This document shows, piece after piece, positions 20,004 through 60,765 of a stretch of DNA of 64,000 nt (the stretch's first letter is position 1; every line of letters starts with the position of its first letter). The DNA is from Mycolicibacterium diernhoferi. Lineage in GTDB: Bacteria > Actinomycetota > Actinomycetes > Mycobacteriales > Mycobacteriaceae. The position numbers and the translations under genes were made by a program. Location of the stretch: the NCBI RefSeq assembly GCF_019456655.1, contig NZ_CP080332.1, positions 4,526,001-4,590,000 of the forward strand, written 5' to 3'. The notes below the pieces were generated by a model. That model did not search any database and was not told the origin of the DNA. It worked only from the letters and a program-made list of their open reading frames with translations.

Positions 20004-20636
20004 CTAGAGCGACTCCAGAATCTGCTTCATCTCGTCGATCTCGCGCTGCTGGCTGTCGATGATCGCGCGGGCCATGGCGATCGCCGGTTCGTGCTGACCA
20101 TCGTCGATCTCGGTCTGCGCCATGGTGATCGCACCCTCATGATGACCGATCATCTGGGTCAGGAACAGCCGGGCGGCCTCGGGGCCCGGCGCCGACCGCA
20201 GCTTCTCGATATCGGCCGGCGCGACCATGCCTTCCATCGAGCCGTGGTCCATATCGGGCATGGGCGGGTTGCCCCAGCTGGTCAGCCAGCTTTGCATCTG
20301 CTCGATCTCGGGCGCCTGGGCCGCCTTGATCTCTTCGGCGAGCTTGCGAACCCGCGGGTCCACGTCCTGTTTGAGCAGCAGGATGTCCGACATCTCCACG
20401 GCCTGACGGTGGTGCGGGATCATGTGCTGCGCGAACATCACGTCCGCGCCATTGTGGGCGCCGTCGTGGGCGCCGTCGACCGGGCCGGGACTCGCTCCGC
20501 TGCCGCTGTGATGGCTGGTTCCGTGGTCATGGTCGGTGTGTCCGTCGTCGCTGGTCTCGGCGGACTGGTTGGTACAGCCCGCCGCGATCAGGGCGGCGAC
20601 CGCCGCCGTCGCGACCATGATGGCCGGTTTGCGCAT
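20004..20636 (-). CDS. DUF305 lipoprotein, copper-associated
   Basis: 210-residue secreted lipoprotein: signal peptide with lipobox IAAGC (Cys near residue 21), a His/Asp-rich stretch (DDGHTDHDHGTSHHS) that could bind metal, then a DUF305 four-helix domain with the family motifs FAQHMIPHHRQAVEM and QMIGHHEGAITMAQ. DUF305 proteins often lie next to copper genes and have been tied to periplasmic copper binding. Here it is divergent from the copper chaperone gene across 61 nt containing a CsoR/RicR-like operator (20670-20686), so co-regulation by copper is likely. GAGGAGAG precedes the ATG. Confidence 0.87.
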   Translation of the reverse strand: MRKPAIMVATAAVAALIAAGCTNQSAETSDDGHTDHDHGTSHHSGSGASPGPVDGAHDGAHNGADVMFAQHMIPHHRQAVEMSDILLLKQDVDPRVRKLAEEIKAAQAPEIEQMQSWLTSWGNPPMPDMDHGSMEGMVAPADIEKLRSAPGPEAARLFLTQMIGHHEGAITMAQTEIDDGQHEPAIAMARAIIDSQQREIDEMKQILESL

Positions 20637-20669
20637 TGTGTCTCTCCTCGCACCCGTGGACGTTTACCC

Positions 20670-20686
20670 ATACCCCCTACCGGTAT
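20670..20686. promoter_or_regulatory. CsoR/RicR-type copper operator overlapping copZ -10 region
   Basis: ATACCCCCTACCGGTAT is an inverted repeat (ATACC-N7-GGTAT) and fits the RicR-type box TACCC-N5-GGGTA with one mismatch (TACCC-CCTAC-CGGTA). It overlaps a TATATC -10 element (20684-20689) that is 8 nt before the chaperone ATG, so bound repressor would block RNA polymerase. It lies between two divergent copper genes. The repressor gene is not in the window. Confidence 0.6.
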
Positions 20687-20697
20687 ATCATGGCGGT

Positions 20698-20907
20698 ATG
20701 AGCATCGTTCTCAAGGTCCAAGGTATGAGTTGTGGGCACTGCGTGTCGACGATCACCGCCGCCGTCAGCCCACTGGCCGGTGTCAGCGGGGTCGAGGTCG
20801 ACCTGGCCGCCGGGCAGGTCACGGTGGACGGCACCCCCGACAGCGCGGCCGTCACCGCGGTCATCGAAGACGCCGGTTACGACGTGAGTCCTGCGGTATC
20901 GGCCTGA
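20698..20907 (+). CDS. CopZ-like copper metallochaperone (HMA domain)
   Basis: 69-residue cytoplasmic heavy-metal-associated domain protein. The metal site is GMSCGHC (Cys12 and Cys15) in the usual first loop of a ferredoxin-like fold; the length is that of stand-alone CopZ. It would carry Cu(I) to the CPx-ATPase encoded 200 bp downstream. ATG 20698 is preferred: the preceding TATATC -10 element predicts a transcript starting at or just before the ATG, and the longer upstream frame reads through the operator. Copper-induced expression is inferred from the operator. Confidence 0.9.
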   Translation: MSIVLKVQGMSCGHCVSTITAAVSPLAGVSGVEVDLAAGQVTVDGTPDSAAVTAVIEDAGYDVSPAVSA

Positions 20908-20954
20908 GCGCACACCGCCCCGGCCCACATCTCATATTGAACGGGAGGCAAGCC

Positions 20955-21035
20955 ATGAGCCCGCGCAGCCGACCGCAAGTGAGGATCGCAGCGAGGTACG
21001 AGCGAGGACCGGAACGAACGGGAGGCAAGCCATGA
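20955..21035 (+). CDS. 26-residue leader peptide 1, translationally coupled
   Basis: ATG 20955 follows GGGAGG by 6 nt and opens a 26-codon frame (starts [10 protein letters not shown], ends ERTGGKP), rich in Arg (7 of 26) and Pro, with no Cys or His. Its TGA (21033-21035) overlaps the ATG of the second identical leader (ATGA at 21032-21035). Coding status is inferred from the RBS, the start and the exact coupling; there is no direct proof of translation. It could set the translation level of the ATPase or sense ribosome speed at Arg/Pro codons. Confidence 0.5.
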
Positions 21036-21112
21036 GCCCGCGCAGCCGACCGCAAGTGAGGATCGCAGCGAGGTACGAGCGAGGACCGGAACGAACGGGA
21101 GGCAAGCCATGA
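21032..21112 (+). CDS. 26-residue leader peptide 2, identical to leader 1
   Basis: Second copy of the 26-codon frame, with the same GGGAGG ribosome binding site upstream. Its stop TGA (21110-21112) overlaps the ATG of the copper ATPase (ATGA at 21109-21112), so ribosomes that finish this peptide are placed on the ATPase start. Identity of the two copies at nucleotide level indicates a recent duplication or gene conversion. Confidence 0.5.
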
Positions 21113-23361
21113 GCACCGTCACCCTCGATGTCGGCGGCATGACCTGCGCATCCTGCGCGGCGCGGATCGAGAAGCGGCTCAACCGCATCGACGGCGTGCA
21201 GGCCAGCGTGAACTTCGCCACCGAACAGGCCCGCGTCGACTTCCCCGACACCGTCTCCCCCGAGGAATTGGTGGCCGCGGTGGAGGCCACCGGGTACACC
21301 GCGGCACTGCCCGCGGAGGCCGCGTCCGACACCGCGCCCGAGGACGACGAACCCGACGAGTCCGCGCCGTGGCGCCAACGCCTGACGATCTCCGCGGCAC
21401 TGTCCATCCCGGTTGTGCTGCTGTCGATGATCCCGGCGCTGCAGTTCAACAACTGGCAGTGGCTGGCGTTCACCCTGGCCTCCCCCGTGGTGGTGTGGGG
21501 CGCCTGGCCCTTCCACCGGGCCGCCTGGGCCAATCTGCGCCACGGTGCGGCGACGATGGACACCCTCATCTCGGTCGGCGTGATCGCCGCGTACGCCTGG
21601 TCGGTGTGGGCGCTGTTCTTCACCCACGCCGGCATGCCCGGCATGAAGATGCCCTTCGAGCTGATCTCCACCAGCTCCGAGCCGCACCTGTACCTGGAGG
21701 TGGCGGCGGCCGTCACCACCTTCCTGCTCGCCGGCCGCTACTTCGAGTCCCGCGCCAAACGCCAGTCCGGCGCCGCGCTGAAGGCGCTGCTGCACATGGG
21801 CGCCAAGGATGTCGCGGTACTGCGGAACGGGGCTGAAACACGAGTTCCGATAAGCCAACTCGCCATCGGCGACGTATTCGTGGTGCGCCCCGGCGAGAAG
21901 ATCGCCACCGACGGGGTGGTCACCGCCGGCACCTCGGCCGTCGACACCTCGATGCTCACCGGTGAGCCGGTGCCCGTCGAGGTCGGCGAGGGTGACACCG
22001 TCGTCGGCGCGACGGTGAACGTGGGCGGTCGGCTCCAGGTGCGGGCCACCCACATCGGCGCCGACACCCAGCTGGCCCAGATGGCGCGGCTGGTCACCGA
22101 GGCACAGAGCGGCAAGGCCGAGGTGCAGCGGCTCGCCGACCGGGTGTCGGCGGTGTTCGTGCCCATCGTGATGGCGTTGTCGGTGCTGACCCTGCTGGGC
22201 TGGTTGTTCCTCGGGGACGGTTCGGTCGCCGCGGCGTTCACCGCCGCCGTCGCCGTCCTGATCATCGCCTGCCCGTGCGCACTCGGGCTCGCCACCCCGA
22301 CCGCGCTGCTGGTCGGTACCGGCCGGGGCGCCCAGCTCGGCATCCTGATCAAGGGCCCGCAGGTGCTGGAATCCACCCGGCGGATCGACACCGTGGTGCT
22401 GGACAAGACCGGCACGGTGACCACCGGGCGGATGTCGGTGGTCGACGTGCACGTGGCCGGCGGTGAATCCCGCCCGGACATCGTCCGGCTGGTCGGCGCG
22501 CTGGAGCACGGCTCCGAACATCCGATCGCCCGCGCGATCGCCGGATACGCCGCCGCACAGGGATCGTTGCCGGAGGTCACCGACTTCCGTAATCACGGCG
22601 GGCTCGGCGTCGCCGGTATGGTCGACGGCCACCCGGTGGCCGCCGGACGGGTCGCCTGGTTGCGTGACGACTGGTCGCTGACGCCGCCCGAGGACCTACT
22701 CGCTGCCGCCGATGCGGCTGCCGCACAAGGACATACACCGATCTGGTTTGCCTCCGACGGTCAGATCCGCGCCGTCGTGGTGGTGGCCGACACCATCAAG
22801 GACACTGCCGCCGAAGCCATTTCGGGTTTCCGTGCGCTGGGCCTCACGCCGGTGCTGCTCACCGGTGACAACCGCCGCGCCGCCGAAACCGTGGCCGCCG
22901 TGCTGGGGATCGAGCGGGTGGTCGCCGATGTGCTGCCCGCAGGCAAGGTCGACGAGATCAAACGGCTGCAGGCCGACGGCCGGGTGGTCGCGATGGTCGG
23001 TGATGGCGTCAACGATGCCGCGGCACTCGCGCAGGCCGACCTGGGGTTGGCCATGGGCACCGGTACCGACGTCGCCATCGAGGCCTCCGACCTGACGCTG
23101 GTGCGCGGCGATCTGCGGGCGGCGGTCGACGCGATCCGGTTGTCACGCGCGACGTTGGGCACCATCAAGGGCAACCTGTTCTGGGCGTTCGCCTACAACG
23201 TCGCGGCACTTCCGCTGGCCGCGGCCGGGCTGCTCAATCCGCTGATCGCCGGCGCCGCGATGGCCTTCAGTTCGGTGTTCGTGGTGACCAACAGCCTTCG
23301 GCTGCGGCGGTTCTCGTCTACTGCGTCCGGCGGGCCCGGAACAGCTTCACCTCGTCCTTGA
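21109..23361 (+). CDS. Copper-exporting P1B-type ATPase (CopA/CtpA-CtpV-like)
   Basis: 750-residue inner-membrane Cu(I) exporter. One N-terminal HMA domain with GGMTCASC (Cys13, Cys16), then eight expected membrane helices; the membrane metal site is [12 protein letters not shown], the phosphorylated Asp is in DKTGTVTTG, followed by the SEHPIARAI motif and the [10 protein letters not shown] hinge. CPC plus the CopA-like helices 7-8 indicate copper rather than zinc. Its translation starts on the last unit of the 77-bp repeat, coupled to two leader peptides. The 3' end overlaps the convergent cyclase gene by 44 nt. Likely co-transcribed with the chaperone gene under copper control. Confidence 0.93.

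Positions 23362-57003: not shown

Positions 57004-60765
<3,762 letters not shown>

Follow-up and report, generated by a model that had tools for sequence, protein, structure and literature searches.

Among described systems, the repeat studied here comes closest to the MIRUs (mycobacterial interspersed repetitive units), which show a like architecture in the accessible part of a review (PMC12548453), and whose definition (Supply et al. 1997; type locus senX3-regX3) we take from excerpts of papers that cite it. According to an excerpt of PMC4213456, the MIRUs of senX3-regX3 are restricted to M. leprae and the tuberculosis complex. This range, as far as that excerpt gives it, contrasts with the distribution of a classic MIRU model, which matched 64 of 98 genomes of the genus in our searches (loci L155-L171 were examined). 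Here we describe two identical units that lie exactly where a gene for a predicted copper ATPase begins, in a 64,000-nucleotide stretch of Mycolicibacterium diernhoferi DNA, hereafter the window (Table 1). Probably, they belong to a dispersed MIRU-like element that is present in tandem at the ATPase start codon, each copy being predicted to relay the ribosome via an ATGA-overlapping mini-ORF, such that insertion likely leaves the ATPase translated.

Table 1. Features at the copper ATPase locus, in window positions.
Feature	Position	Strand	Basis or remark
CopM-family / DUF305 protein, divergent	20004..20636	-	domain/family match
Small CopZ-like ORF, 69 aa, GMSCGHC motif	20700..20907	+	upstream of ATPase
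GAACGGGAGGCAAGCC preceding unit 1, equal to the 3' end of each unit, RBS-like	20939..20954	+	GGGAGG at 20943-20948
Unit 1, 77 bp, ATGA border to ATGA border	20955..21031	+	sequence, TRF
Unit 1 mini-ORF, 26 codons	20955-21035	+	TGA overlaps next ATG at 21032-21035
Internal GTGA of unit 1, in frame	20979..20982	+	restart point in two-ORF copies elsewhere
Unit 2, identical to unit 1	21032..21108	+	sequence, TRF
Unit 2 mini-ORF, 26 codons	21032-21112	+	TGA overlaps ATPase ATG at 21109-21112
Internal GTGA of unit 2	21056..21059	+	sequence
Copper-type heavy-metal P1B ATPase, 750 aa	21109..23361	+	TIGR01511/TIGR01525 above cut-offs; HMA domain

The tandem repeat spans 20939-21114 with a period of 77, 2.3 copies and 100% matches (TRF score 352, compared to 147 for the next-best repeat in the window), and this perfect period across 176 bp far exceeds chance. 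Both units open with ATGAGC, and GGGAGG (at 20943, 21020 and 21097) lies 6 nt upstream of all three ATGs. The original prediction had described the perfect 77-bp period, the GGGAGG motifs, the 26-codon ORFs and both TGA/ATG overlaps, all of which are confirmed by the sequence and by TRF, and its idea of an amplified cassette fits the tandem state. It overlooked that the unit recurs elsewhere, and that unit 1 does not overlap the copZ-like stop. The latter (TGA 20905-20907) lies 47 nt ahead of unit 1, which means that unit 1 is not overlap-coupled to copZ and that tight coupling is not expected. Initiation on unit 1 would instead start from the RBS-like GGGAGG directly before it. The 16 bp GAACGGGAGGCAAGCC in which this motif is embedded may be the native RBS, because a comparable GGGAGGCAAACGC is located ahead of the ATG of the related locus L174, or else a truncated copy of the unit.

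The copZ-like ORF itself is without a match in Pfam or NCBIfam, and we take its GMSCGHC motif to be CopZ-like. A consensus scan of 20600-21200 returned one promoter-like site just ahead of copZ (20663-20691) and another on the opposite strand (20714-20687). The ATACCCCCTACCGGTAT stretch at 20670-20686, directly before copZ, presumably resembles a copper-repressor (CsoR/RicR) operator, and together with the promoter-like site it would suggest a nearly leaderless, copper-controlled transcript. Elsewhere in the window, TRF reports a degenerate 15/30/45-bp repeat of the CCAAGAAGGCCGAGC type at 57228-57351, possibly encoding a Lys-rich protein tail.

BLASTN places the element at six sites in its own genome (5,998,503 bases, one contig), and R1, a sequence-only model built from 20 units, returns eight units at the identical six loci. 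Judging by protein names, other own-genome loci are presumably zwf-opcA, rapZ-yvcK and ilvB-ilvN, and another unit precedes what we take to be an acyl-CoA-dehydrogenase-like gene. The zwf-opcA-like locus holds two 76-nt units (L002 1496-1651, reverse complement), in each of which an 8-codon ORF hands over at GTGA to another short ORF. The comparison with mycobacterial genomes for which the original prediction had called was also productive beyond the own genome: within the genus, 31 of 98 genomes carry the element by BLASTN and 36 of 98 by R1. Both searches scored part of each genome's candidates and copy numbers are therefore lower bounds, the highest tally being at least 21 R1 matches in G033. 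The element is present in 12 of 14 genomes comprising the own and 13 relatives. Among the ten genomes behind named loci, Mycobacteriaceae bacterium 1482268.1 (seven matches) and Mycolicibacterium sp. CBMA 247 (one) are the two carriers, and M. septicum, M. nebraskense and six Nocardia, Rhodococcus and Tsukamurella genomes are without it. Tandem copy number varies between species, with four matches in L087 (one unit holds N) compared to one in L003 of the same flank cluster.

Several window-family copies (L236, L240, L241, L243, L249, L250, L259 and L273-L276) carry a 24-nt-type insert around GGTGGGCCCACGCCCGCAGGGCAGGGGACGAG, which mostly follows GAGGACC and lies elsewhere in L259 and L273. Among the matches listed, a stretch resembling this insert is also found within the 101-bp classic MIRU of L167, and the insert may be a separate mobile module.

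How strictly do these copies maintain the phase seen in the window? From the compared loci 112 distinct copies were collected (nhmmer E<=1e-6), 19 of which were left out because one or both borders were missing or because they held N. Borders were set at the DTGA nearest to the expected position, a rule biased towards the detection of a TGA but not towards any phase. In 86 of the 93 bordered copies an unbroken ORF chain runs through to the right-hand ATGA: 64 are a single ORF from border to border, and in 22 a first ORF passes to a second at an internal GTGA within GTGAG[GC]ATC (GTGAGGATC in 16, GTGAGCATC in 6). The other seven fail to close on the right border. Reading in the third frame served as a control, in which 21 of 93 close; the second frame is no control, as it runs straight into the border TGA, where the relay follows immediately. 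Copies share descent and tandem copies were counted singly, hence 86 of 93 overstates the independent evidence. By distinct unit sequence, 79 of 85 close, and for the 49 junctions obtained by flank clustering the chain is kept in all copies at 43, in some at two and in none at four.

The family ranges from 64 to 102 bp, and the 93 copies take 16 different lengths, only two of which (75 and 102) are multiples of three; 67 copies are 2 mod 3 in length, 24 are 1 mod 3 and two are 0 mod 3. Read in frame from the right border, 76 of 80 array ends lead into a downstream ORF that stays open for 100 codons or more, compared to 0 and 26 of 80 in the two remaining frames. On the left side, the TGA terminates a frame of this minimum length in 54 of 81 cases (8-28 of 81 at neighbouring offsets). 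The right-hand start codon is ATG in 90 of the 93 copies, and GGAG or GAGG lies ahead of it in 85. As such, the stop/start overlap that the original prediction noted in the window is borne out as a recurrent, phase-kept design. Its counter-scenario of a general intergenic element with random phase applies in part, since the element is indeed general, but its phase is not random. The internal GTGA would provide a second relay point, with two of the three frames of the 5' arm still reaching the right-hand ATGA. An internal DTGA/GTGA is kept in 23 of 24 copies of 1 mod 3 and in 55 of 67 copies of 2 mod 3; this difference is not significant (Fisher p = 0.17), which speaks against the relay reading.

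Across the order, R1 matches are found in 31 of 101 genomes, 29 of these 31 being outside the genus, with E-values that are mostly weaker off-genus except for G120 (1.5e-20). Off-genus arrays were viewed in 15 stretches (L311-L325) and at the R1-matched loci, and border patterns were typed by eye after viewing (13 of 21 loci), so that these arrays are illustrative and not a test. In G115 (L311), six 77-bp units run from GTGA to GTGA in the same phase, each with a 26-codon ORF, and G480 (L315) holds two 80-bp units. In L312 and L313 the inner units measure 84 or 81 nt, and a final 83-nt unit restores the -4 phase. Of the 24 off-genus units delimited in this way, 18 close and six do not (in L312, L313, L316 and L308); L318 yielded no unit under the typed border patterns.

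The region upstream of the ATPase was viewed in 54 loci, from which 24 comparable copZ-ATPase junctions were chosen for a tree. The 30 omitted loci differ in upstream context or are less closely related; a bare ATGA overlap is also seen in at least two (L136 and L142). In 17 of the 24 junctions the stop of the copZ counterpart overlaps the ATPase start as a bare ATGA, i.e. an empty site, and in five the two are separated by a unit-free spacer that includes an RBS-like sequence. Units are thus present in two junctions and absent from 22, the site holding 0, 1 or 2 units depending on the species. Such unit-free junctions fit insertion of an element that we infer to be mobile and that would land exactly at start codons. 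The site is free of units in the nearest relative found (L174; G364; 93% ATPase identity), with which the window groups in the tree (support 100/99). The single-copy L178 falls in a neighbouring group (94/94) together with two empty ATGA and two spacer loci, a placement that requires either that units were gained twice or that they were gained once and lost several times. The L178 unit and the window unit are alike at 73 of 78 positions, compared to 57 to 64 of 77 for five other own-genome units set beside the window unit, and this closeness leans towards a shared origin with losses.

L178 (G235) also differs in its border. Its 78-nt unit (1417-1494), of a third length divisible by three and outside the 93 bordered copies, has no right-hand DTGA, and the mini-ORF is continuous in frame with the ATPase, with ATT standing in place of the native ATG. 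Here the ATPase start seems to be supplied by the element, a possible natural case of start-codon takeover.

Could the mini-ORFs be a leader dedicated to copper? The original prediction proposed a copper-specific translational rheostat, or a peptide sensing Arg supply, by which the mini-ORFs would attenuate or tune translation of the ATPase. The site immediately ahead of a Cu-type ATPase and the Arg-rich peptide would agree with this, but the element also precedes unrelated genes in its own and in other genomes, which counts against the rheostat, as does the lack of any unit in most of the compared junctions. With regard to the peptide, entropy averages 0.64, 0.62 and 0.625 at the first, second and third codon position over 33 distinct 77-nt units (values given without a significance test). 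The codon positions are thus equally variable, giving no sign of protein-level selection on the 26-mer, and the idea of Arg sensing finds no footing in these units; nor do the 33 contain a conserved peptide or codon run as in an amino-acid-sensing uORF attenuator. The 26-mer has no family match in NCBIfam or Pfam. Furthermore, a consensus fold of 20 units gave no supported RNA structure (covariation term 0.22, two-sided change in 3 of 15 pairs), which likewise weighs against a copper leader, and no Rfam match reaches the gathering score across 20600-21400. We reject the copper-specific leader on the distribution of the element, and consider it very improbable.

Equal variability of the codon positions also suits a neutral, VNTR-like repeat, in which the insertions would lie at ATGA simply because this is the preferred target, and the ORF chain would have arisen incidentally and be ignored by ribosomes, the ATPase being translated from its own RBS. 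Since every unit supplies GGGAG next to the right-hand ATG, such independent initiation is conceivable. Conversely, the phase has been maintained through many indels that rarely gave lengths divisible by three, and the L178 copy lacks a native ATPase ATG, so that we regard neutrality as unlikely. Some MIRU/VNTR loci provide a precedent for action on transcription, either from an internal promoter or through an effect on mRNA that grows with the number of repeats: the senX3-regX3 MIRUs can drive senX3-independent regX3 expression according to an excerpt of PMC4213456, and fpg mRNA increases with repeat length in the part of PMC2734929 available. The consensus scan, by which mycobacterial promoters are poorly covered, found no promoter-like site inside the units, and we judge a transcriptional role here to be quite improbable. 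By analogy with the fpg report (PMC2734929, in part), repeat number could shift ATPase output.

Returning to a ribosome relay by a MIRU-like element, the mini-ORFs would be translated, and coupling, aided by the GGGAG motif at the 3' ends of the units, would feed the ATPase. The second copy would stem from tandem duplication, and copy number would affect output modestly at most. Insertion is thus likely to be harmless to the pump gene. If this holds true, a mobile repeat can occupy the start codons of operon genes, in metabolism as well as in copper export, without silencing them. MIRU-type biology would then extend beyond the typing repeats of tuberculosis, both to another family of sequences and to further families within the order. 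Moreover, the coupling proposed for MIRUs in 1997 would become testable, since natural one- and two-ORF chains, an in-frame fusion and empty sites coexist. More tentatively, and with slightly less than an even chance in our estimation, MIRUs could belong, as a single branch, to a superfamily of selfish ‘ribosome relay’ elements that spans the order. Within it, several sequence families would insert at ATGA/GTGA with a phase-locked ORF chain, here with the internal GTGA as a frame corrector, that keeps the host gene translated, some copies donating a new start codon and N-terminus, as in L178.

How does the window family relate to known systems? The 77-bp unit falls in the size class of MIRUs (40-100 bp by definition; 53 and 77 bp in the excerpts consulted), and copies of the classic MIRU of 53 and 101 bp are present in relatives. 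Both have ATGA-to-ATGA borders with an ORF that closes on the next ATG in a -4 overlap, both sit intercistronically at start codons, and both are dispersed, here over the six own-genome loci, with variable tandem copies, which in the window family were compared between species. The longer variants of both families hold a similar insert. Homology of the window unit to the senX3-regX3 repeat was not detectable in a comparison made without the own genome's junction, and identity with the classic MIRU by homology is rejected for the base unit, a remote shared ancestry being conceivable. The two families are abundant in different genomes. A literature search that included core sequences of the element yielded no publication that we recognised as describing this sequence family. 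The window repeat looks like a known type of mycobacterial repeat with a novel sequence and not like a copper sensor. With the MIRU-VNTR/ETR-D typing loci it has in common the tandem 77-bp copies at an operon junction, the copy-number variation known here being that between species at the copZ-ATPase site. With translational coupling by leader ORFs, as presented in the accessible part of PMC12548453, it shares the stop/start overlap that leads from a short ORF to a gene. Unlike in those systems, however, the leader described here is a multi-copy, dispersed element that is not bound to one regulated gene.
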